Assembly: GCF_002105535.1 (NCBI RefSeq)
Contig: NZ_CP015848.1
Location: 3,824,926-3,888,925, forward strand
Source of the DNA: Magnetospirillum sp. ME-1
Lineage (GTDB): Bacteria > Pseudomonadota > Alphaproteobacteria > Rhodospirillales > Magnetospirillaceae
Length of the DNA stretch: 64,000 nucleotides
Direction of reading: 5' to 3'
Of this stretch, positions 12,501 through 50,539 are shown one piece after another (the first letter of the stretch is position 1; every line of letters starts with the position of its first letter). The position numbers and the translations under genes were made by a program. Under the pieces are notes generated by a model, which saw only the letters and a program-made list of their open reading frames with translations, was not told where the DNA came from and ran no database searches.

Positions 12501-12603
12501 GTCATCCCGACGACCATGGGGAGGAGGGATCTCGTTCTGGCGTGATGCCGGGGCGGTCGGCTCCATGCCAAGTGGAGATCCCTCGGCTTCGCCTCGGGAT
12601 GAC
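12501..12603. repeat. palindromic repeat element, copy C
   Basis: 103-bp element with ends GTCATCCCGA and TCGGGATGAC and inner arms GGAGGGATCTC and GAGATCCCTC. It fills most of the gap between pstB and phoU, so it lies inside the pst-phoU-phoB transcript and may set the relative amount of the distal genes or stabilise the upstream RNA. Confidence 0.85.
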
Positions 12604-12624
12604 AGGCTTTCACTTTCGGCGTCA

Positions 12625-18758: not shown

Positions 18759-18799
18759 TTTCAATGGAACCACTCGCGGCGCAAGAATGCCCTCGACCT

Positions 18800-18886
18800 G
18801 TCATCCCGAGGCATCGCCGAGGGATCTTTCAGCCCAAAGCGATGGCCGGTTTTACCTGAAAGATCCTTCGCGGCGCTCAGGATGAC
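18800..18886. repeat. palindromic repeat element, copy D
   Basis: 87-bp member, GTCATCCCGAG to CTCAGGATGAC, with inner arms GGGATCTTTCAG and CTGAAAGATCC. It lies in the 5' leader of the PNPOx-like gene, ending 19 bases before its start codon, so it would be part of that mRNA. Confidence 0.8.
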
Positions 18887-18904
18887 AAAATGAGGAGCCC
18901 TGTC

Positions 18905-40235: not shown

Positions 40236-41876
40236 ATGGCTACTGAATCCTTGCTCGGAAAACTGCTGAGGATGAAAGTCCTGGGTGCGTCGTTGTTTGG
40301 CGCCGGGGTGATCTTCGTCGGCGGCATCATGTTCTGGGGCGCCTTCAACACGGCGATGGAAGCCACCAACACGCTTGGCTTCTGCATCAACTGCCATGAG
40401 ATGAAGGACAACGTCTATCAGGAGTACGTCAAGACGGTCCACTACACCAACCGTTCCGGTGTGCGGGCCACGTGCTCCGACTGTCACGTGCCCAAGGACT
40501 GGGTCCACAAGTTCGTCCGCAAGATTCAGGCCAGCGGCGAGGTCTTCCACTGGCTGATGGGGACCGTCAACACCCCCGAGAAATTCGACGCCAAGCGCTA
40601 TCAGCTGGCCAAGCGCGTCTGGGCGACCATGAAGAGCACGGATTCGCGGGAATGCCGCAACTGCCATGCCTTCGACCAGATGAACCCGGCCGTCCAGAAG
40701 CAGCGCGCCAAGAAGCAGCACGAGAACGCCCAGGCCGAGGGCGGCACCTGCATCGACTGCCACAAGGGCATCGCCCACAAGCCGGTCCACCACCTGCTGG
40801 AGCAGGAGGAGGAGCAGAAGGCCGCCGAGGAGGCCAAGAAGAAGGCCGAGGCCGAGGCCAAGAAGGCCGCGTCCGCCAAGCCCGCCGCGGCTCCGGCCGC
40901 CGCCACCGCTTCGGCTCCCGCCGCCGGCGGCGCCGCGCTGCCCCCCGTCACCGGCAAGGCCGTGGACTGGAGCAAGGTGGCCGAGACCAAGACCGTGCTG
41001 TTCTATCCCGGCCAGACCGCCATGGAGTGGGTGCTGACCGGTACCGACCACGGCGGCACCCGCGCCTTCAAGAAGGGCGACCGCTGCTTCGAGTGCCACA
41101 GCAACGAGACCGCCGACATGGGCGCCAAGATGGCGTCCGGCTCCAAGGCGGAAAAGACTCCCATTCCCGGCAAGCGCGCCGCCATTCCGCTGTCCATCAA
41201 GGCGGCGTATGACGCGGACAACCTGTACATGCGCTTCGAGTTCCCGGCTGGTCCGCACAACGACGTGCCCTTCGTCAAGGGCGGCAAGATGGACCCCGAG
41301 AACGAGGTCAAGGTCGCCATGATGATCGACGGCGGCAAGGTGGACATGGCGGCTCGCTCGGGCTGCTGGACGTCGTGCCATGCCGATGCCCGTGACATGC
41401 CCCAGGCTCCCGCCGCTCCCGGCGCGGTGCCCGGCATCGACACCAAGGCCGGCTACGTCACCAAGTATGTGCCGGAAAGCCGCACCCAGTTCGACACCAC
41501 CGCGCGCAACAACTGGGACAAGGTCAAGCCGCAGGCCGAGCTGGATGCCCTGCTGGCCGGCGGCACCTTCCTCGACCTGACCCGCTGGAAGTCCTCGGGC
41601 GCGTCCGAGCAGGGCTACGTTCTGGCCGAGCGCGTGCTCAAGCCCGGCAACGACGTGGCCTATACCGGCAAGAAGGAAGGCGATAAGTGGGTGGTGACCA
41701 TGATCCGCCGTCTGAAGGCGACCCAGCCGGGCGAAGTCGCCCTGGTTGCCGGTCAGTCGTACAGCGTCGGCTTCGCCGTCCACGACGACTTCACCAATGG
41801 CCGCTTCCACCACGTGTCCGTCGACCTGAAGCTGGGTCTGGACGCCGAGGGTGAGATCAAGGCGGTCAAGATGTAG
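40236..41876 (+). CDS. NapC/NirT-type tetraheme cytochrome fused to an ethylbenzene-dehydrogenase-like haem domain
   Basis: 546-residue membrane-anchored multiheme protein. A single N-terminal helix (about 14-36) is followed by the NapC/NirT quinol-oxidising domain with CINCH (50-54), CSDCH (80-84), CRNCH (140-144) and CIDCH (172-176). A charged then Ala/Pro-rich linker (188-235) joins it to a domain of about 300 residues with CFECH (284-288) and a CX3CH site CWTSCH (377-382). The second domain resembles the haem-binding gamma-subunit domain of the ethylbenzene dehydrogenase family. It probably carries electrons from quinol to periplasmic acceptors such as NirS. The next gene encodes a soluble copy of the second domain. 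Confidence 0.85.
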   Translation: MATESLLGKLLRMKVLGASLFGAGVIFVGGIMFWGAFNTAMEATNTLGFCINCHEMKDNVYQEYVKTVHYTNRSGVRATCSDCHVPKDWVHKFVRKIQASGEVFHWLMGTVNTPEKFDAKRYQLAKRVWATMKSTDSRECRNCHAFDQMNPAVQKQRAKKQHENAQAEGGTCIDCHKGIAHKPVHHLLEQEEEQKAAEEAKKKAEAEAKKAASAKPAAAPAAATASAPAAGGAALPPVTGKAVDWSKVAETKTVLFYPGQTAMEWVLTGTDHGGTRAFKKGDRCFECHSNETADMGAKMASGSKAEKTPIPGKRAAIPLSIKAAYDADNLYMRFEFPAGPHNDVPFVKGGKMDPENEVKVAMMIDGGKVDMAARSGCWTSCHADARDMPQAPAAPGAVPGIDTKAGYVTKYVPESRTQFDTTARNNWDKVKPQAELDALLAGGTFLDLTRWKSSGASEQGYVLAERVLKPGNDVAYTGKKEGDKWVVTMIRRLKATQPGEVALVAGQSYSVGFAVHDDFTNGRFHHVSVDLKLGLDAEGEIKAVKM

Positions 41877-41949
41877 TCTGACGAAAGGGCCGGATGCGGA
41901 CGTGGGGACGTCCGCATCCGGTGGTTTCAATCCTGGGAGGGAAAAGCAG

Positions 41950-42960
41950 ATGGGTAAGTTCGCATTTCATGCCGCCGCCGCGGCGTTTGCCGTTTCGACC
42001 CTGGCGGCCGGTGCCGCCCATGCCGCCCCCAAGGCGGTGAACTGGGACAGTGTTCCCGCTTCCGAAACCATGCTGTTCTATCCCGGCCAGACCTCCATGG
42101 AATGGATCCTGACCGGCTCGGACCATGGCGGCGTGCGCGCCTTCAAGAAGGGCGACCGCTGCTTCGAATGCCATTCCCAGGAAGCCCAGGACATGGGCAC
42201 CAAGATGGTGACCGGCGCCAAGGCCGAAAAGACCCCCATTCCGGGCAAGCGCCCGGCCTTTCCGCTGAAGGTCAAGGCGGCCTATGACGCGGAGAACGTC
42301 TATCTTCGCCTGGAATTCCCCGCCGGCGCCCACGCCGACGTGCCCTTCGCCAAGGGCGGCAAGCTCGACCCCGACAACGAGGTCAAGGTCGCCATGATGA
42401 TCGACGGCGGCAAGGTGGACATGGCGGCCCGGTCCGGCTGCTGGACCAGCTGCCATTCCGACGCCCGCGACATGCCGACCGCGCCGGCCGCCGCCCAGCT
42501 CGGCGCCGCCAAGGGCATCGACACCAAGGCGGGCTATGTCACCAAGTACGTGCCGGAAAGCCGCACCCAGTTCGACACCGCCAAGCGCGACAACTGGGAC
42601 AAGGTGAAGCCCCAGGCCGATCTGGACGCCCTGTTGAAGGGCGGCGGGTTCCTGGAGCTGCTGCGCTGGAAGTCGTCGGGCGCCGCCGAGCAGGGCTATG
42701 TCCTGGCCGAGCGCGTGCTCAAGCCCGCCACCGACTTCACCGCCACCGGCAAGAAGGAAGGCGCCAACTGGGTGGTGACCATGAGCCGCAAGCTCAAGAG
42801 CGGCCAGCCGGGCTCGGTGGCGTTCGAACCGGGCAAGAGCTACGCCGTCGGCTTCGCCGTTCACGACGACTTCGCCAACGGCCGCTTCCACCACGTCTCC
42901 CTTGACCTCAAGCTCGGCCTCGACGCCGAGGGGGAAATCAAGGCGGTGAAGCTGCCCTAA
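41950..42960 (+). CDS. periplasmic haem protein, paralogue of the preceding C-terminal domain
   Basis: 336-residue exported protein (signal peptide MGKFAFHAAA..AAHA, 1-25). It is a soluble twin of the second domain of the upstream cytochrome: it shares VAMMIDGGKVDMAARSGCW, YVTKYVPESRTQFDT, EQGYVLAERVLKP and GRFHHVS, with CFECH at 71-75 and CWTSCH at 164-169. A tandem duplication followed by loss or gain of the tetraheme part explains the pair. It would be a diffusible partner or electron carrier. The substrate, if any, is unknown. Confidence 0.85.
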   Translation: MGKFAFHAAAAAFAVSTLAAGAAHAAPKAVNWDSVPASETMLFYPGQTSMEWILTGSDHGGVRAFKKGDRCFECHSQEAQDMGTKMVTGAKAEKTPIPGKRPAFPLKVKAAYDAENVYLRLEFPAGAHADVPFAKGGKLDPDNEVKVAMMIDGGKVDMAARSGCWTSCHSDARDMPTAPAAAQLGAAKGIDTKAGYVTKYVPESRTQFDTAKRDNWDKVKPQADLDALLKGGGFLELLRWKSSGAAEQGYVLAERVLKPATDFTATGKKEGANWVVTMSRKLKSGQPGSVAFEPGKSYAVGFAVHDDFANGRFHHVSLDLKLGLDAEGEIKAVKLP

Positions 42961-43337: not shown

Positions 43338-44111
43338 ATGGCCGATGATGTGAGGCCGCTGGTTCATCTGGTGGGAGCGGGGCCGGGCGACCCCGACCTG
43401 CTGACGGTCAAGGCTCTGCGCCTGATCCAGTCGGCGGACGTGGTGGTCTATGACCGTCTGGTGGGCGACGGCATTCTCGACCTCATTCCGGCGGGCACCA
43501 CCCGCATCTGCGTCGGCAAGGAGAAGGGGCGCCACCTGCTGCCCCAGGATCAGATCAACGATCTGCTGGTCAGTCTGGCGCGGCCCGGCCGCCGGGTGGT
43601 GCGCCTCAAGGGCGGCGACCCCTACGTCTTCGGGCGCGGTGGCGAGGAAGCCATGTATCTGGCCGGCTACGGCATCGCCACCGAGGTGGTGCCGGGCATC
43701 ACCGCCGCCGCCGGCTGCGCCGCCGCCACCGGCATTCCGCTGACCCATCGCGAGGTGGCGCGCTCGGTCCGTCTGGTCACCGGCCATCTGCGCGACGACC
43801 AGAGCCTGGACCTGGACTGGGAGCGTCTGGCCGACCCCTCCTGCACCCTGGTGGTGTATATGGGGGTGGGCACCGCCGGGCTGATTTCCCAGGGACTGAT
43901 CAAGGCCGGTCTCGACCCCGCCACCCCGGCGGCGGTGGTGGAAAAGGGCACCACGGCGGCCCAGCGGGTGCTGCGCGGCACCCTGGCCGAACTGGAAGCC
44001 AACGTCGCCCGCTGGCAGGTGGAGCCGCCCGCCTTGCTGATCATCGGCCGCGTGGTGGCCCTGGCCGCCGAGCAGGAGGTCGCCGAGTGGCGCGGCGCCG
44101 TCGAGGCGTGA
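43338..44111 (+). CDS. nirE: uroporphyrinogen-III C-methyltransferase for haem d1 (NirE)
   Basis: 257-residue SAM-dependent enzyme converting uroporphyrinogen III to precorrin-2, the first step to haem d1. Motifs: VHLVGAGPGDPDLLTVKALRLI, VVYDRLV, RLKGGDPYVFGRGGEEA, VVPGITAAAGCAAATGIPLTHR, VVYMGV, and VEKGTTAAQRV. Position in the nir operon favours NirE over CobA. The ATG 43338 follows GGGGG; an in-frame GTG at 43311, overlapping the cupredoxin stop, would add nine residues. Confidence 0.92.
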   Translation: MADDVRPLVHLVGAGPGDPDLLTVKALRLIQSADVVVYDRLVGDGILDLIPAGTTRICVGKEKGRHLLPQDQINDLLVSLARPGRRVVRLKGGDPYVFGRGGEEAMYLAGYGIATEVVPGITAAAGCAAATGIPLTHREVARSVRLVTGHLRDDQSLDLDWERLADPSCTLVVYMGVGTAGLISQGLIKAGLDPATPAAVVEKGTTAAQRVLRGTLAELEANVARWQVEPPALLIIGRVVALAAEQEVAEWRGAVEA

Positions 44112-44200
44112 GGTTGTTGTCGTTCCAAACTCTTGCTCAACGTCAAGCCAAAGCCGGGCCGGGAATGCTATTCCTCGCTTAGCCTGTGGGAGGGCTGAGG

Positions 44201-44575
44201 ATGCGTATGCTCGGGGCACTGACGGGTGCGATGGCGGTATTGCTGGCGGCGGGACCGTCAATGGCTGAGGTCGCGCCTGCGCGCTCAGGGGCTGAGGTCG
44301 CGCCTGCGCGCTCAGGGGCCGAGATCGCGCCTTCGCGTCAGGCGAAACTGAAGGACATGGTGGACCAGGATTGCGGTTCGTGCCACGGCATGACCCGCCA
44401 GGGCGGCCTGGGCTCGCCCCTGCTGGCCGAAGACCTGAACAAGCTGTCGGCCGAGGCGGTGATCGAGACCATTCTGGAAGGCCGCCCCGGCACCCCCATG
44501 CCGCCGTGGAAGGCCATGCTGAGCCGGGAAGAGGCCGCCTGGATCGCCGCCTATCTGATGGGAGAGATGAAATGA
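44201..44575 (+). CDS. nirC: small periplasmic c-type cytochrome NirC
   Basis: 124-residue cytochrome: signal peptide to about residue 22 (PSMA), one haem motif CGSCH (58-62) and a Met ligand candidate in PGTPMPPW. NirC carries electrons in haem d1 maturation and to NirS. Between the signal peptide and the haem domain lies an in-frame tandem repeat, GAEVAPARS, encoded by 27-bp DNA repeats. The start ATG 44201 follows GGGAGGG. Its stop overlaps the nirF ATG (ATGA). Confidence 0.88.
   Translation: MRMLGALTGAMAVLLAAGPSMAEVAPARSGAEVAPARSGAEIAPSRQAKLKDMVDQDCGSCHGMTRQGGLGSPLLAEDLNKLSAEAVIETILEGRPGTPMPPWKAMLSREEAAWIAAYLMGEMK
44264..44331 (+). repeat. 27-bp tandem repeat inside nirC
   Basis: Two exact 27-base copies (44264-44290 and 44291-44317, beginning GCTGAGGTCGCGCCTGCGCG) and a diverged partial third copy (44318-44331). 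They add nine residues each to the mature N-terminus of NirC, before the haem domain. Exact identity suggests recent duplication and possible copy-number variation between strains. Confidence 0.88.
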
Positions 44576-45846
44576 TCCATCCAGCCTGTCATCCCGAGCG
44601 CAAGCGAGGGATCTCATCCTGGCGCGTCTTTTCCGGTTTGGCACCGATGGTCCAGGCGGAGATTCCTCGCCTGCGGCTCGGAATGACGCGGATGGCCGCC
44701 CTCGTCGGCCTCGGCCTGCTGTCGGCCTGCCAGCCCGCGCTGCGCGGCACCGGCGACCTGGGGCTGGTGGTGGAGCGCGCCGACGGCCGTCTGATGGTGG
44801 TGGAGAACAGCACGTCCACCAAGCTGGCCAGCGTCGCCGGCCTGGGCGATCTGTCCCACGCCGCCCTGGTCTATTCCCGCGACCAGCGCTTCGCCTATGT
44901 GTTCGGCCGCGACGGCGGGCTCACCAAGGTGGACATGCTGACCGGGACCATCGCCGGGCGGGTGATGCAATCGGGCAATTCCATCGGCGGCGCCATCTCC
45001 CAGGACGGCACCCTGGTGGCGGTGGCCAATTACACGCCGGGCGGCATCAAGGTGTTCGACGCCGCCACCCTGGCCCAGGTGGCCGACATTCCCGCCATGG
45101 GCGCCGACGGCAAGGCCAGCAAGGTGATCGGCATCGCCGATCTGTCGGGGCGGCGGTTCATCTACACGCTTTATGACGCGGGCGAGATCTGGATCGCCGA
45201 TCTGTCCGACCTGAAATCCCCGAAGATCACCAAGCACACCAATATCGGCAAGCTGCCCTATGACGCGCTGATCACCGGCGACGGCCGCTGGTACCTGGCC
45301 GGGCTGTTCGGCGAGGACGGCATCGCCATGCTCGATCTGTGGAACCCGGACAAGGGGGTGCGGCGCATCCTCGACCATTACGGCAAGGGGAAAGAGGCCC
45401 TGCCGGTCTACAAGATGCCCCATCTGCGCGGCTGGGCGGTGGCCGGCGACGAGGTGTGGCTGCCCGCCATCGGCCACCATCAGGTGCTGGTGGTGGACAA
45501 GGGAAAGTGGACGGAAAAGGCCCGGGTCGATCTGGCGGGCCAGCCGGTCTTCGCCATGGCGCGGCCCGACGGACGGCAGGTGTGGGTCAACTTCGCCGTT
45601 CCCGATTATTCCAAGGTCCAGGTGATCGACACCCAGACCAAGAAAGTGATCAAGACCCTGGAACCGGGGCTGGCCATCCTGCACATGGAATTCACCCCCA
45701 AGGGCGAGCGGGTGTGGCTGTCGGCCAGGGATTCCGACAAGGTGGTGGTCTACGACACCGAGACCCTGGAGCAGGTGGCGGAAATTCCGGCGTCGCGGCC
45801 CAGCGGCATCTTCTTCACCAATCGCGCCCACAAGACGGGGCTCTAG
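44572..45846 (+). CDS. nirF: haem d1 biosynthesis protein NirF
   Basis: 424 residues from the coupled ATG 44572, or 387 from the ATG at 44683. NirF is a d1-type eight-bladed propeller that binds the haem d1 precursor in the periplasm. The lipoprotein-like signal MAALVGLGLLSACQ begins at residue 41 of the long form, and the propeller follows (GDLGLVVERADGRLMVVEN, FAYVFGRDGGLTKVDM). The start at 44572 overlaps the nirC stop and has GGGAGAG before it, but residues 6-38 are encoded by palindromic element E. The true N-terminus is therefore unsettled: an element-derived extension, or re-initiation at 44683 or 44692. Confidence 0.85.
   Translation: MIHPACHPERKRGISSWRVFSGLAPMVQAEIPRLRLGMTRMAALVGLGLLSACQPALRGTGDLGLVVERADGRLMVVENSTSTKLASVAGLGDLSHAALVYSRDQRFAYVFGRDGGLTKVDMLTGTIAGRVMQSGNSIGGAISQDGTLVAVANYTPGGIKVFDAATLAQVADIPAMGADGKASKVIGIADLSGRRFIYTLYDAGEIWIADLSDLKSPKITKHTNIGKLPYDALITGDGRWYLAGLFGEDGIAMLDLWNPDKGVRRILDHYGKGKEALPVYKMPHLRGWAVAGDEVWLPAIGHHQVLVVDKGKWTEKARVDLAGQPVFAMARPDGRQVWVNFAVPDYSKVQVIDTQTKKVIKTLEPGLAILHMEFTPKGERVWLSARDSDKVVVYDTETLEQVAEIPASRPSGIFFTNRAHKTGL
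44588..44687. repeat. palindromic repeat element, copy E (inside the nirF 5' end)
   Basis: 100-bp copy, GTCATCCCGAG to CTCGGAATGAC, 13 bases after the coupled nirF ATG. It keeps the reading frame open and encodes CHPERKRGISSW at its left and RLRLGMT at its right arm. The hairpin would form in the middle of the nirC-nirF message. Confidence 0.85.
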
Positions 45847-45848
45847 CC

Positions 45849-46298
45849 ATGGATCACCTCGACCAGAGGCTCCTGAACGAGTTTCAGCAGGACTTTCCGC
45901 TGGAGTCGCGGCCCTATGCCGTGCTGGGCGAGCGGCTGGGCATGGACGAGGACGAGGTCATGGACCGCCTGGCGCGCCTGACGCGGGGCGGCTCCATCAG
46001 CCGGGTGGGCGCGGTGTTCCGTCCCCACACGGTGGGCGGCTCGACGCTGGCGGCCATGGCGGTTCCCGCCCATCGCCTGGAAGAGGTGGCCGAATTGGTC
46101 AACGCCTTCGGCGAGGTCAACCACAATTACCAGCGCGAGCACCGCCTGAACCTGTGGTTCGTGGTGACCGCGCCCACCAAGGCGCGGGTGGCCGAGGTGC
46201 TGGACGAGATTTCCCAAAGTACCGGGCTCCAGGTCCTCGACCTGCCGCTGCTCGAACATTTCCACATCGATCTGGGATTCGACCTCAAATGGTCTTAA
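45849..46298 (+). CDS. nirD: sirohaem decarboxylase subunit NirD (AsnC-like)
   Basis: 149-residue AsnC/Lrp-like protein: winged HTH-like N-terminus (LDQRLLNEFQQDFPLESRPYAVLGERLGM) and alpha-beta C-terminal domain (NHNYQREHRLNLWFVVTAP). NirDLGH together remove the acetate side chains of sirohaem to give 12,18-didecarboxysirohaem on the way to haem d1. Assigned NirD rather than NirG by position (first of four) and length. Two bases after the nirF stop; overlaps nirL by ten bases. Confidence 0.85.
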   Translation: MDHLDQRLLNEFQQDFPLESRPYAVLGERLGMDEDEVMDRLARLTRGGSISRVGAVFRPHTVGGSTLAAMAVPAHRLEEVAELVNAFGEVNHNYQREHRLNLWFVVTAPTKARVAEVLDEISQSTGLQVLDLPLLEHFHIDLGFDLKWS

Positions 46299-46792
46299 AC
46301 GACGCAGATCACGCCCTGGTTTCGGTCCTGGCCGAGGGCCTGCCCCTGGTCTCCCATCCCTACCGGGCCATCGGCTCCCAGTTGGGCATGGACGAGGCCG
46401 AGGTGATCGCCCGCATCCAGGCCATGCGGGACGCGGGCATCATCCGCCGTTTCGGCATCATCGTCCGCCACCACGAACTGGGCTTCAAGGCCAACGCCAT
46501 GTCGGTGTGGAGCATCCCCGACGGCGTGGTCAGCGAGATCGGCCGCCGTCTCGGCGACGCGCCCGAGGTGACGCTGTGCTACCGCCGGCCGCCCCGGCTG
46601 CCTGACTGGCCCTACAACCTGTTCTGCATGATCCACGGCCGCGACCGGGCGGCGGTGGAGGAGACCATCCGGGCTCTGGTGCAACGTTTCGATCTGGCCC
46701 AGTATCCCCACGCCGTGCTGTTCTCCACCCGGCGGTTCAAGCAGACCGGCGCGCGCTACGGCCGGCCCATCCCGCGGGCGGCGGCGGAGTAG
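46289..46792 (+). CDS. nirL: sirohaem decarboxylase subunit NirL (AsnC-like)
   Basis: 167-residue member of the NirL/H type. The segment IIRRFGIIVRHHELGFKANAMSVW has the Arg-Arg-x-Gly and His residues implicated in binding and decarboxylating sirohaem, and CYRRPPRLPDWPYNLFCMIHG is diagnostic of this subtype. It pairs with a NirD/G-type subunit. Start ATG 46289 lies inside the nirD end. Second of four related genes, so nirL by order and length. Confidence 0.85.
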   Translation: MVLNDADHALVSVLAEGLPLVSHPYRAIGSQLGMDEAEVIARIQAMRDAGIIRRFGIIVRHHELGFKANAMSVWSIPDGVVSEIGRRLGDAPEVTLCYRRPPRLPDWPYNLFCMIHGRDRAAVEETIRALVQRFDLAQYPHAVLFSTRRFKQTGARYGRPIPRAAAE

Positions 46793-46804
46793 GGGGAAGG
46801 GAAC

Positions 46805-47248
46805 ATGGACGACATCGACCGCGCCATCATCAATTCCCTGCAGGGCGGCTTTCCCATCTGCGACCAGCCGTTCTCGGCCATCGCCGAGCCCCTGGGCCTG
46901 ACCGGATCGAAGCTTCTGGCCCGTATCCGCAAGCTGAAGGACGCGGGCGTCATCTCGCGTTTCGGCCCCATGTGGCATGCCGAGCGGATGGGCGGCGAAC
47001 TGACGCTGACCGCCATGAAGGTGCCCCAGGAGCGCTTCGAGGAAGTGGCGGACATCGTCAATTCCTTTCCCGAGGTGGCGCACAATTACGCCCGCGAGCA
47101 CGCGCTGAACATGTGGTTCGTGGTGGCCACCGAAAAGCCCGGCCGCAAGGCCGAGGTGCTGGCCGAGATCGAGACGCGGACGGGCATCGAAGTTCACGAC
47201 ATGCCCAAGATTCAGGAATTCTACGTGGGACTGAGGTTCGAGGCATGA
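46805..47248 (+). CDS. nirG: sirohaem decarboxylase subunit NirG (AsnC-like)
   Basis: 147-residue protein of the NirD/G type, closely related to nirD in this window (both have HNYxREHxLNxWFVV and an I.E.....V.D.P...F.... end). It has ISRFGPMWHAERMGGELTL where the L/H type has the RRxG...H motif, so it is probably the structural partner. Third of the four, hence nirG. It follows nirL by 12 bases after GGGGGAAGGG and overlaps nirH by four bases. Confidence 0.85.
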   Translation: MDDIDRAIINSLQGGFPICDQPFSAIAEPLGLTGSKLLARIRKLKDAGVISRFGPMWHAERMGGELTLTAMKVPQERFEEVADIVNSFPEVAHNYAREHALNMWFVVATEKPGRKAEVLAEIETRTGIEVHDMPKIQEFYVGLRFEA

Positions 47249-47724
47249 CCACCACCTTGGATCCCATCGACCGGGCCATCGTCGTCGCCACCCAGGACGG
47301 GCTGCCGCTGATGGACAGGCCCTATCACGAGGTGGCGCGCCAGGTGGGCATCTCGCCCGACGAGGTGATGAACCGCATGGAGCGCATGCTCCATGACGGC
47401 GTCATCCGCCGCATCGGCGTGGTGCCCAACCACTATGCGCTCGGCTACAAGTTCAACGGCATGACCGTGTGGGACGTGGCCGACGAGGATATCGCCGAGG
47501 CGGGGCGCCGGGTGGGCGAGCTGGATTTCGTCAGCCATTGCTACCACCGGCCGCGCCATTTGCCAGACTGGCCCTATTCCCTGTTCGCCATGATTCACGC
47601 CAAGGAGAAGGCCGACGCCGATTCCCTGGTCCAACGGGTGGCAGACGCCCTGGGGTCCTTGTCGCACGGCCACATGGTGCTGTTCTCGTCGCGCATTCTC
47701 AAGAAGACCGGCCTTCGGCTGTAG
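47245..47724 (+). CDS. nirH: sirohaem decarboxylase subunit NirH (AsnC-like)
   Basis: 159-residue NirL/H-type protein: VIRRIGVVPNHYALGYKFNGMTVWDV carries the catalytic-type Arg-Arg-x-Gly and His residues, and CYHRPRHLPDWPYSLFAMIHAKEK matches nirL. Fourth of the set, so nirH. The ATG overlaps the nirG stop (ATGA). All four subunits are separate here, as in Pseudomonas, not fused as in some denitrifiers. Confidence 0.86.
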   Translation: MTTTLDPIDRAIVVATQDGLPLMDRPYHEVARQVGISPDEVMNRMERMLHDGVIRRIGVVPNHYALGYKFNGMTVWDVADEDIAEAGRRVGELDFVSHCYHRPRHLPDWPYSLFAMIHAKEKADADSLVQRVADALGSLSHGHMVLFSSRILKKTGLRL

Positions 47725-47735
47725 GAGTTCGCCCC

Positions 47736-48878
47736 TTGTTCCGCGTTTCCCAGTTCATGCACGAACTCGTCGCCCCCAGCCCGGTGGGGCCGCGCCGCGA
47801 TCCGCCCGGCCCGGTGGTGATCTGGAACCTGATCCGGCGCTGCAACCTCACCTGCAAGCATTGCTATTCCATCTCGGCCGACAAGGATTTCGCAGGCGAA
47901 CTCTCCACCGACGAGGTGTTCGGCGTGATGAAGGACCTGAAGTCCTTCCGCGTGCCGGTGCTGATCCTGTCGGGGGGCGAGCCCCTGCTACGCCCCGATA
48001 TCTTCGACATCGCCATCCGCGCCAGGGAGATGGGCTTCTATACCGCGCTGTCCTCCAACGGCACCCTGATCGACGAGCAAGTAGCCGACCGCATCGCCGA
48101 GATCGGCTTCAATTACGTCGGCATCAGCATCGACGGCATCGATGCCACCCATGACCGCTTCCGGGCGCGCCAGGGGGCCTTCGCCGAATCCATGGGCGGC
48201 ATCCGCCGTTGCGTCAAAAGGGGCGTCAAGGTGGGGCTGCGCTTCACCATGACCATGGACAACGCCGCCGAACTGCCCCAGGTGATCGATCTGATGGAAA
48301 GTGAAGGGGTGGCCAAGTTCTACTTCTCGCACCTGAACTATGCCGGGCGCGGCAACAAGAACCGCCTGGACGACGCCACCGTGCAGGTGACCCGCAATTC
48401 CATGGATTACCTGTTCGACGTCGCCTGGGCCCATGCCTCGGCGGGACGCGAGCGGGAATTCGTCACCGGCAACAACGACGCCGACGGCCCCTATTTCCTG
48501 TCCTGGGTCCGGCGCAACCACCCGGACAAGGCCGACCACATCGCGGGCAAGCTGCGTCAGTGGGGCGGTAACGCCTCTGGCATCAACGTCGCCAACATCG
48601 ACAACCTGGGCGAGGTCCACCCCGACACCATGTGGTGGAACCATAACCTTGGCAATGTGCGCGACCGGCCGTTCTCCGCCATCTGGCCCGATACGTCCGA
48701 CGCGCTGATGGCGGGTCTCAAGGTCCGTCCCCGGCCGGTGGAAGGGCGGTGTGCGGCCTGCGCCTATCTCGACATGTGCAACGGCAACACGCGGGTGCGG
48801 GCGCAAAGGGTGACCGGCAACGCCTGGGCCGAGGATCCTGGCTGTTACCTGAGCGACGAGGAGATCGGGCTGACATGA
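47736..48878 (+). CDS. nirJ: haem d1 synthesis radical SAM enzyme NirJ
   Basis: 380-residue radical SAM/SPASM enzyme that replaces propionate side chains of didecarboxysirohaem by oxo groups. The cluster motif CNLTCKHC is at 36-43, LILSGGEPLLRPD binds SAM, and the C-terminal SPASM cysteines are in CAACAYLDMCNG and DPGCYL. The start is a TTG at 47736 (MFRVSQFMHEL after initiation), placed after TAGGAG; the first in-frame ATG comes seven codons later. Its TGA overlaps an ATG (48875) at the nirN junction. Confidence 0.92.
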   Translation: MFRVSQFMHELVAPSPVGPRRDPPGPVVIWNLIRRCNLTCKHCYSISADKDFAGELSTDEVFGVMKDLKSFRVPVLILSGGEPLLRPDIFDIAIRAREMGFYTALSSNGTLIDEQVADRIAEIGFNYVGISIDGIDATHDRFRARQGAFAESMGGIRRCVKRGVKVGLRFTMTMDNAAELPQVIDLMESEGVAKFYFSHLNYAGRGNKNRLDDATVQVTRNSMDYLFDVAWAHASAGREREFVTGNNDADGPYFLSWVRRNHPDKADHIAGKLRQWGGNASGINVANIDNLGEVHPDTMWWNHNLGNVRDRPFSAIWPDTSDALMAGLKVRPRPVEGRCAACAYLDMCNGNTRVRAQRVTGNAWAEDPGCYLSDEEIGLT

Positions 48879-48891
48879 GTATTTCCGACCT

Positions 48892-48993
48892 GTCATCCCG
48901 AGCCTTGCGAGGGATCTCCGCCTGTTCCGCCGTGCGGGTTTTGTGGAGGCGTACCAGGATGAGATCCCTCCTCCCGATGGTCGTCGGGATGAC
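48892..48993. repeat. palindromic repeat element, copy F (at the nirJ/nirN junction)
   Basis: 102-bp copy, GTCATCCCGAG to TCGGGATGAC, starting 14 bases after the coupled ATG at 48875. Its right arm encodes MRSLLPMVVGMT, the first half of the nirN signal peptide. The reading frame stays open across the entire element. Confidence 0.87.
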
Positions 48994-50539
48994 GGTTCTT
49001 GCCGTTCCCGCTCTGGCGGCCCCCAACCCGACCGAAGCGGAGGCGCCGCGCCTCTATGCCGAGCATTGCGCCGCCTGCCATGGCGGCGACCGCCTGGGCG
49101 CCATCGGCCCGGCCCTGCTGCCCGAGAATCTGGGCCGCCTTCGGAAGGCCGAGGCGGAGAAGGTCATCGCCCAGGGCCGCCCCGCCACCCAGATGCCGGG
49201 CCATGCCGACAAGCTGAACCCCGACCAGATCAAGGTGCTGGCCGATTACGTCTACACCCCGCTGGCGGCGGTGCCCGCCTGGGGCATGGCCGAGATCAAG
49301 GCCACCCACGTGGTCAACGTCGACCCCGCCACCCTGCCGGCCAAGCCGCAGTGGAATACCGATCCTTTGAACCTGTTCACGGTGGTGGAGACCGGCGACC
49401 ACCACGTCACCATCCTGGATGGCGATTCCTTCAAGCCGCTGGTCCGCTTCCAAAGCCGCTTCGCCCTGCACGGCGGCGCCAAGTACTCGCCCGACGGCCG
49501 CTTCGTCTATTTCGCGTCCCGCGACGGCTGGATCACCAAGTACGACCTTTATACCCTGCAGGTGGTGGCCGAGATCCGGGCCGGGGTGAACACCCGCAAC
49601 GTCGCCGTTTCCCATGACGGCCGCTTCCTGATGGTCGGCAACATGCTGCCCCATACCCTGGTGGCCCTGGATGCCCGCGATCTTACGCCCATGCAGGTGA
49701 TTCCGGTGGAAGGCGAACGGGTGGGCGGCAAGGTCCCCACCTCGCGCGTTTCGGCGGTCTATACCGCGCCCATGCGCTCCAGCTTCGTGGTGGCGCTGAA
49801 GGACATTCTGGAAATCTGGGAAATTCCCTATGCCGACGATTACGGCCCGGTGATGAACGGCTTCGTCCATTCCTACGAAAAGGGCCTCGAGGAAGGCATC
49901 AGCGCCGGGGGCCGCTTTCAGGCCATCCGCATCAGGACGCCCGACTACCTGGACGACTTCTTCTTCGACCGCACCTACGAGCGGGTGATGGGCGCGTCGC
50001 GCGACGGCACCAAGGGCCTGGTGGTGGATCTCGACATCAAGCGCAAGATGGCCGAGATCGACCTGCCGGGCATGCCCCATCTGGGCTCTGGCATCATCTT
50101 CCGGAAGGACGGCAAGGACTACATGGCGACGCCGCACCTGAAAGAGGCGGTGATCAGCATCATCGACATGGAAAGCTGGAAGACGGTCAAGCGCATCCCC
50201 ACCCTGGGGCCGGGCTTCTTCATGCGTAGCCACGAGAACACCAACTATGCCTGGATCGACGTCTCCATGGGCAAGGAGAAGGACGCCATCCAGATCATCG
50301 ACCTTAACGCCATGGAGATCGTCAGAACGCTGCGTCCCGCGCCGGGCCGCACCACGGCGCACGCCGAATTCGACCGGTCAGGCCGCCACGTGCTGATCTC
50401 GGTGATGGAGGCCGACGGCGAACTGATCGTCTATGACGCCGCCGGGTTCGAGGTGGTGACCCGCATGCCCATGAAGCGGCCGGTGGGCAAGTACAACGTC
50501 TTCAACAAGATCAATTATTCAAGCGGCACCAGTCATTAG
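48959..50539 (+). CDS. nirN: dihydro-haem d1 dehydrogenase NirN
   Basis: 526-residue NirS-like protein that completes haem d1 by oxidising the dihydro precursor and passes it to NirS. The signal peptide MRSLLPMVVGMTVLAVPALA is followed by a c-type haem domain with CAACH (37-41) and a d1 propeller (NLFTVVETGDHHVTILDGDSF, KYSPDGRFVYFASRDGW). The ATG 48959 was chosen because it begins a normal signal peptide and has GGAGG upstream. An in-frame ATG at 48875, overlapping the nirJ stop, would add 28 residues, mostly encoded by element F. Last gene of the operon; the 3' end overlaps the convergent gene by 29 bases. Confidence 0.88.
   Translation: MRSLLPMVVGMTVLAVPALAAPNPTEAEAPRLYAEHCAACHGGDRLGAIGPALLPENLGRLRKAEAEKVIAQGRPATQMPGHADKLNPDQIKVLADYVYTPLAAVPAWGMAEIKATHVVNVDPATLPAKPQWNTDPLNLFTVVETGDHHVTILDGDSFKPLVRFQSRFALHGGAKYSPDGRFVYFASRDGWITKYDLYTLQVVAEIRAGVNTRNVAVSHDGRFLMVGNMLPHTLVALDARDLTPMQVIPVEGERVGGKVPTSRVSAVYTAPMRSSFVVALKDILEIWEIPYADDYGPVMNGFVHSYEKGLEEGISAGGRFQAIRIRTPDYLDDFFFDRTYERVMGASRDGTKGLVVDLDIKRKMAEIDLPGMPHLGSGIIFRKDGKDYMATPHLKEAVISIIDMESWKTVKRIPTLGPGFFMRSHENTNYAWIDVSMGKEKDAIQIIDLNAMEIVRTLRPAPGRTTAHAEFDRSGRHVLISVMEADGELIVYDAAGFEVVTRMPMKRPVGKYNVFNKINYSSGTSH

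Follow-up and report, generated by a model that had tools for sequence, protein, structure and literature searches.

The window analysed here, a stretch of 64,000 nucleotides (nt) of the Magnetospirillum sp. ME-1 genome (contig NZ_CP015848.1, positions 3,824,926 to 3,888,925), carries nirJ, encoding the haem d1 radical SAM protein, and nirN, encoding a protein with cytochrome c and cytochrome d1 domains, as neighbours that share an ATGA stop-start overlap. A palindromic repeat element with the ends TGTCATCCCGA and TCGGGATGAC starts 12 nt past the nirJ stop, and the reading frame from the overlap ATG at 48875 is open across this element and on through NirN up to 50539. Copies of the same repeat family lie just behind the start codons of four other genes for exported proteins, and at all five genes the palindrome probably becomes part of a disposable export signal. 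The window's own genome, one contig of 4.55 Mb, is called G000 below; other genomes are coded G001 and so on, and loci L001 and so on.

An earlier, sequence-only reading had described the junction as an ATGA overlap followed by a palindromic element and then the cytochrome, which is what the sequence contains, with the family model placing the start of the element at 48891 and not at 48892. It had also held that the right arm encodes MRSLLPMVVGMT and supplies half of a signal peptide, and indeed about 12 of the 20 residues of that peptide (MRSLLPMVVGMT followed by VLAVPALA) are element-derived. The stretch ahead of it, MSISDLSSRALRGISACSAVRVLWRRTR, is in frame too, and all of its residues except the first few derive from the element. 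A reading that closes on Gly-Met-Thr at the right end of the element was found in both nirN and nirF, as that account had stated, though the nirF copy is oppositely oriented. Both copies are more than chance palindromes, folding better as RNA than shuffled sequences do, with z at -4.3 for the nirN copy and -5.5 for the nirF copy.

The nirN site in related genomes

Among 60 genomes surveyed, G000 included, nirN is present in 34, and within the genus in 13 of 17. Comparison of nirN 5' ends between genomes, the check that the earlier reading had proposed, showed that the same insertion lies in frame in five genomes (G000, G010, G009, G013 and G005, hereafter filled), and that G016 has no element at the site, an ordinary leader, MKASLTAAILLLAALPALA, beginning directly at the ATGA (Table 1). 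The distance from the ATG to the Tyr-Ala before the haem motif is 171 nt in filled genomes, 186 nt in G000, the extra 15 nt of which sit behind the signal peptide, and 84 nt in G016; the length differences from G016, 87 and 102 nt, are each a multiple of three. The NirN match in the other four filled species is 89–91 percent identical and without stops.

A tree of five genes from 12 genomes gives the split of G000 and G016 from the rest full ultrafast-bootstrap support; by single genes, other genomes can be as close to G000 as G016 is (G013 equal for nirJ, G010 nearer for CcmH). Precise excision of the nirN copy in G016 was considered and rejected, its 5' end (ATGAAGGCTTCGTTGA) resembling that of G012 and being missing from the filled alleles. 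Its nirN 5' end looks ancestral, so that the G016 state more probably goes back to recombination with a strain lacking the element than to excision. This nearest relative is also empty at all 12 of the G000 element sites that were found in it, and had 0 family copies in 415 kb, as against six distinct copies in 400 kb of G009.

Table 1 Features of the window at the nirJ/nirN junction and at other copies of the repeat
Feature	Position	Strand	Basis or remark
nirJ (haem d1 radical SAM protein), upstream of junction	47736..48878	+	TIGR04051, 616 bits; stop TGA 48876-48878
ATGA stop-start overlap nirJ/nirN, favoured NirN start	48875..48878	+	in-frame ATG in 5/5 filled species; overlap start also in empty-site relatives, e.g. 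G016
Palindromic repeat element, nirN copy	48891..48993	+	103.6 bits to family model (this copy included in building it)
In-frame extension MSISDLSSRALRGISACSAVRVLWRRTR ahead of ATG 48959, mostly element-encoded	48875..48958	+	open in 5/5 species
Element right arm read MRSLLPMVVGMT, start of predicted signal-peptide hydrophobic region	48959..48994	+	sequence
Native remainder of predicted signal peptide, VLAVPALA	48995..49018	+	comparison with empty-site G016; putative cleavage site
nirN (cytochrome c + cytochrome d1 domains)	48875..50539	+	PF02239, PF13442
Palindromic repeat element, nirF copy, opposite orientation	44587..44688	-	88.1 bits, model span 44588-44688
nirF, lipoprotein-type signal peptide (LSAC, Cys codon 44728-44730) behind element	44572..45846	+	PF02239, d1 domain
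ATGA overlap nirC/nirF	44572..44575	+	sequence
Further copy, between genes, 10 nt past a stop codon	3849..3951	+	75.9 bits
Further copy between genes	12501..12604	-	89.3 bits
Shorter, more divergent relative of element	18799..18887	.	35.8 bits plus strand, 34.7 minus strand

A repeat family placed close behind stop codons

The repeat is about 105 bp long, palindromic with nested arms, and dispersed. An initial DNA search of G000, in which 40 of 156 candidates were scored, returned full-length matches that are, the query aside, 77–84 percent identical. A covariance model was then built from 24 copies, the nirN copy among them, and the 149 matches listed from its census of G000 were merged, palindrome matches on both strands counting as one place, to at least 118 distinct places, a lower bound since 150 of 5000 candidates were scored. 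Aligned copies have terminal inverted repeats (TGTCATCCCGA...TCGGGATGACA), so that the family has the short, dispersed form and the ends of a miniature inverted-repeat transposable element (MITE). No Rfam family reached its gathering threshold in 44100-49300, and the core string GTCATCCCGAG led to unrelated papers only in the open literature. Over 64 sources, namely the window and loci around nirN, family matches were confined to the genus of the window (G000, G010, G009, G013, G005 and G003). Duplications of 12-21 nt lie farther out from the element in a few copies, for example at L010, L221 and L231; those that flank the element at L010 (21 nt, 20 of them identical, including the ATGA junction) and at L221 (15 nt) are direct duplications, of which most copies have none.

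When the surroundings of the 118 copies were sorted with a codon-usage model, on which 'gene body' status rests, 77 lay between co-directional genes, 36 between convergent and five between divergent ones, and none in a gene body. The gene ends that read towards an element (n=133) stop before it in 131 cases, inside it in one and after it in one. That the in-frame cases might be mid-gene insertions was rejected on the same grounds, all eight same-frame flanks having intervening stops. Between co-directional genes the element starts a median of 11 nt behind the upstream stop, 68 of the 77 copies within 0–30 nt (two with negative distances, which are boundary errors, being kept among the 77), and a median of 26 nt separates it from the downstream coding start. 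Landing anywhere between genes was thus also rejected, the upstream stop being nearer than the downstream coding start (Wilcoxon p 1.4e-5). The nearer stop of convergent pairs is likewise a median of 11 nt away, and within 30 nt in 32 of 36. In being palindromic repeats behind genes, these copies are like repetitive extragenic palindromic (REP) sequences.

The sequence-only reading had suggested a site preference for ATGA overlaps. As such this is weak: ATGA occurs at the upstream stop of 23 of the 77 element junctions, compared with 33 of 188 junctions without an element (p 0.03), and at one of 72 convergent stops. The preference is stop-proximal, which describes the data better, and ATGA is at most a mild addition to it. 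At overlapping genes, a distance of 11 nt past the stop corresponds to codons 4-6 of the next gene, and the five fusions described below lie at codons 3-6.

In-frame copies at genes for exported proteins

At nirN, nirF, L209, L178 and L162 the copy shares its frame with a start codon 7-16 nt upstream and reads straight into a signal peptide. The nirF element is in frame in G000 and G009 and absent in G016, G010 and G005. The nirN and nirF insertions are independent, as had been supposed, the former being filled in five genomes and the latter in two of those, in opposite orientations. A search of the genome for additional copies at ATGA junctions ahead of genes for exported proteins, also proposed by the earlier reading, yielded two such cases, a CcmH gene (L209; filled in G000, G013 and G009) and a lipoprotein gene (L178; filled in G000 and G010; without a Pfam match and named from its LAAC box), as well as an M16 peptidase gene whose ATG lies just behind a TGA (L162; filled in G000, G013 and G009). 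Orthologues of the last three were sought in 17 genomes of the genus; nirF was compared in a set that leaves out G013, G008 and G017. Taken together, the five loci comprise 15 filled gene copies, all 15 of them in frame, and relatives have empty sites. In-frame, open insertion into conserved genes that are empty in relatives is a mark of protein-coding palindromic elements such as those of Rickettsia (Rickettsia palindromic elements, RPEs), and these loci bear it; insertions within gene bodies, another mark, number 0 of 118 by the codon-usage test.

Signal peptides follow all five fusions, as against 12 of 77 (p about 4e-5 with a crude predictor), or 15 of 77 with generous counting (p 1.5e-4). 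Three further copies of the eight that have an open frame and a start at most 16 nt upstream (1138910, 2070000 and 2920579) were not counted as fusions because each was judged to have a better start behind the element; the copy at 1138910 also precedes a signal peptide, and with all eight candidates included six precede signal peptides (p 9e-5). With starts taken behind the element, the predictor flagged seven of the 75 co-directional downstream genes listed and none of the five fusions; some of the seven are probably membrane helices, and the likely signal peptides of L189 and L190 were missed. The suggestion that tolerance of insertions is confined to places that allow a signal peptide to be rebuilt agrees with the finding that the in-frame 5' fusions are all to signal-peptide genes, but 'confined' is too strong because at most other overlap-type junctions the downstream gene starts behind the element.

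Other repeats occupy some of the same five sites, in frame, in three other species (G003, G017 and G014; the G017 genome is listed with 7 percent contamination). The nirN gene of G003 contains a palindromic repeat of another kind, for which the G003 genome gave 58 match rows, and that of G017 yet another, with 45 (separate arms of one copy being included as rows); both lie in frame between the nirN ATG and the hydrophobic core. Since the G003 gene has no ATG, GTG or TTG between repeat and core, the in-frame GTG and TTG being inside the repeat, at least part of the repeat would be translated if NirN is exported. Among the loci compared, the lipoprotein leader of G003 contains the repeat that this genome has at nirN (a match of 92 percent over 53 nt). 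In G014 the CcmH leader and that of the lipoprotein gene have one repeat in common, matching at 85 percent over 61 nt, and the M16 leader (L291) holds another palindromic repeat, 76 percent identical to a second copy. This last repeat is read in frame as VVTPAKAGVHG...TWIPAFAGMT, and ends in Gly-Met-Thr like the nirN element. The nirN insert of G025 has only weak matches elsewhere in its own genome (best 22 nt) and was not counted, and the CcmH leaders of G011 and G003 had no second copy among the loci fetched from those genomes. Odd leaders were also seen in G001 at nirN and in G011 at CcmH.

A second pattern concerns junctions at which the frame does not enter the next protein. In 17 of 34 junctions where an ATG or GTG overlaps the upstream stop, the frame from it crosses the element and closes on a TGA that overlaps the next gene's start. 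The remaining two frames of these junctions do this in 2 of 68 cases, and the three frames of junctions that lack an overlapping start in 9, 3 and 6 of 41. When the start was chosen more strictly, 31 junctions were left, of which 20 have the coupling frame (p 0.0004 against one third) and 15 are fully coupled. The corresponding numbers for 39 junctions that lack an overlapping start are 18 and eight (p 0.02 for 15 against 8), and the coupling-frame bias is therefore in part general. The definitions of mini-open reading frame (mini-ORF) and coupling were set after inspection of the same data, and the pattern therefore needs an independent genome. Such element-borne mini-ORFs, of about 35-50 codons, run from the ATGA or GTGA of one gene to the ATGA of the next, for example at L010, L231, L007 and L012. 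At L233 (folA, preceded by what we take, from its C-terminus, to be thyA) and L166 (a short-chain dehydrogenase) the old ATGA frame crosses the element out of frame and stops at the element-end TGA (GGATGAC), and the ATG overlapping that TGA is the apparent start of dihydrofolate reductase and of the dehydrogenase. We entertain, tentatively and as the less probable view, that the repeat is a junction cassette for translationally coupled genes, landing behind a stop and offering an open frame that would carry ribosomes either into the next protein or, by way of a mini-gene some 35-50 codons long, to a TGA overlapping the next ATG. If the mini-gene reading were true, a repeat could preserve translational coupling across its own insertion.

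Start codons and interpretation

The explanation that we favour, and hold to be somewhat more probable than its negation, is that a stop-proximal repeat at an ATGA overlap is translated from the ATGA as a long n-region and removed with the signal peptide. An approximately 105-bp palindromic repeat, similar to a MITE or REP sequence, is found preferentially a few nt behind stop codons, and for operon genes overlapped by ATGA this point falls at codons 3-6 of the downstream gene, where an insertion would survive if the downstream protein has a cleavable signal peptide and the frame remains open. At nirN the ribosome would start at the old ATGA start and translate the whole repeat as a long arginine-rich n-region, the right arm of the repeat (LLPMVVGMT) joining the native remainder to form the hydrophobic core. 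The extension would then be cleaved off by signal peptidase together with the signal peptide as NirN is exported, leaving mature NirN unchanged. Long n-regions occur in known export signals.

At nirN the choice of start codon can be followed across species. In-frame ATGs at 48875, 48977 and 48989 are kept in all five filled species; that at 48959, from which the sequence-only reading had started NirN, is ATG in three of the five and CTG in G013 and G005. Its reading of the right arm thus stands and its start codon is not conserved, and translation from the ATGA through the whole repeat is therefore favoured. Starts at 48977 or 48989 would give leaders of 14 or 10 residues that carry no positive charge. 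Of 24 changes in the nirN element over the five species, 14 are synonymous when read in the frame of 48875 (7.5 expected, p 0.003), as are 12 of the 20 upstream of 48959 (6.7 expected, p 0.009), the nirN test being one of 12 region-by-frame tests; the other two frames at nirN have no synonymous excess.

Several observations weigh against this explanation. The in-frame relation is not over-represented, occurring at 7 of 31 overlap-start junctions, and the five fusions were chosen for being in frame, a choice that involved reading, with signal peptides called by a crude predictor and not by SignalP. Pooled over the five loci, 43 of 128 events are synonymous against 38.6 expected (p 0.22), the other four loci being without excess; the nirN excess was therefore rejected as a general feature, and selection on the translated repeat is not general. 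With regard to movement, 107 copies with both ends clean show no excess of matching 2-9 nt flanks, the target-site duplication of a MITE, and the Y1 transposase associated with REP sequences (REP-associated tyrosine transposase, RAYT; PF01797), the only transposase family searched for, is absent from G000, with 5 of 14 control genomes positive. The remaining points concern starts within the repeat. In the window copy TGGAGGC replaces the consensus AAAAGCC and so places GGAGG 9 nt before ATG 48959; an inner ATG is conserved at CcmH (3/3) and the lipoprotein gene (2/2), and an element-end ATG could start a usable leader at nirF (MTRMAALVGLGLLSAC) and at the M16 gene (MTAR...). The comparison is clearly in favour of an upstream start only at nirN, because at CcmH, the lipoprotein gene, nirF and the M16 gene such inner or element-end ATGs could serve. 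Their conservation at these four loci weakens the explanation that we prefer and strengthens the version of the sequence-only reading.

That version, in which NirN starts at ATG 48959 inside the element, so that the repeat brings a leader with a ribosome-binding site and half a signal peptide while the upstream frame is incidental, is accordingly not negligible, and we rate it as unlikely but in need of being reckoned with. Its product, MRSLLPMVVGMTVLAVPALA, would have the length of an ordinary signal peptide, and the GGAGG of the window genome, at a place where the family consensus has AAAGC, and the inner ATGs just mentioned speak for it; the CTG in two of the five species that carry the same nirN insertion, the ATGA frame open in 5/5 and the synonymous excess upstream of 48959 do not. 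In the window species, given the GGAGG, the inner start may be used as well. Pure tolerance, in which the downstream gene restarts at the element-end ATG (GGATGAC; 48977 or 48989 at nirN), has its precedent in folA and the dehydrogenase, which appear to do so, both of these nirN codons are conserved, and the leader from the element-end ATG would be usable at nirF and the M16 gene, but restart at nirN would leave MVVGMTVLAVPALA or MTVLAVPALA, without a positive n-region, and the CcmH gene reads the element end in a different frame; we regard it as improbable for the fusions. Far less credible still is that the nirN of this clade is in decay, or its product not exported, with the frame kept by chance, when the identity and freedom from stops of NirN in the other filled species, and the frame kept in 5/5 at nirN and in every filled copy at all five loci, argue against decay.

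Elements of the preferred explanation, translation of the repeat from the ATGA and its removal with the signal peptide, have relatives in other bacteria, with which the present repeat was compared by description. RPEs are dispersed palindromes of about 105-150 bp, translated in frame inside host genes (PMC2229807 and PMC10969869); the Magnetospirillum repeat resembles them in being a palindromic, dispersed, in-frame repeat of similar size, but RPEs are reported to be fused within many protein genes, whereas here none of the 118 copies lies in a gene body by the codon-usage test and in-frame copies occur solely in the opening codons of genes with a signal peptide. Similar in outcome are the enterobacterial MITEs RU-1 and RU-2, described in PMC2759123 and PMC2229807, where at the Yersinia locus YPO1552 the repeat provides residues 1-30 of a predicted 41-residue signal peptide; that gene encodes a putative exported protein, while the present cases comprise the conserved genes nirN, nirF and ccmH, filled and empty sites, five loci and several repeat families. 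REP sequences too are palindromic and dispersed, a share of them lying 1-20 nt behind stop codons (PMC12306157, which gives about 11 percent of its Escherichia coli set within 15 nt and about half in an earlier study), and the Magnetospirillum repeat is likewise placed close behind stops; it differs in the lack of a RAYT-type transposase in the genome, in its length of about 105 bp with nested arms and in its probable in-frame translation into the next gene. QMITE1 and QMITE2 of Coxiella are MITE-like repeats that overlap annotated genes, QMITE2 lying mainly behind genes, and none is reported in PMC5896051 to affect the 5' end of a gene of known function, which is where the in-frame sites lie in Magnetospirillum. 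Palindromes read in frame, and a single signal peptide built from a repeat, are thus known already, and the recurrent placement is new; in the open literature we found no account of repeats that have inserted recurrently into the starts of signal peptides where genes overlap.

Stop-proximal landing, overlapping genes and a disposable N-terminus with an open frame would together give a simple reason why selfish palindromes enter proteins at one place. The n-regions of signal peptides would then offer repeats a refuge and supply new sequence, and the start sites annotated in genomes rich in repeats would merit re-inspection.

Two other features of the window were noted. Near its start, nirC contains three 27-nt units in tandem (44258-44338); the EVAPARSGA-type repeats that they encode come just after the signal peptide. 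Farther upstream, the adjacent cytochrome-type genes at 40236-41876 and 41851-42960 have a similar C-terminal domain (FYPGQT...), and look by eye like a tandem duplication.

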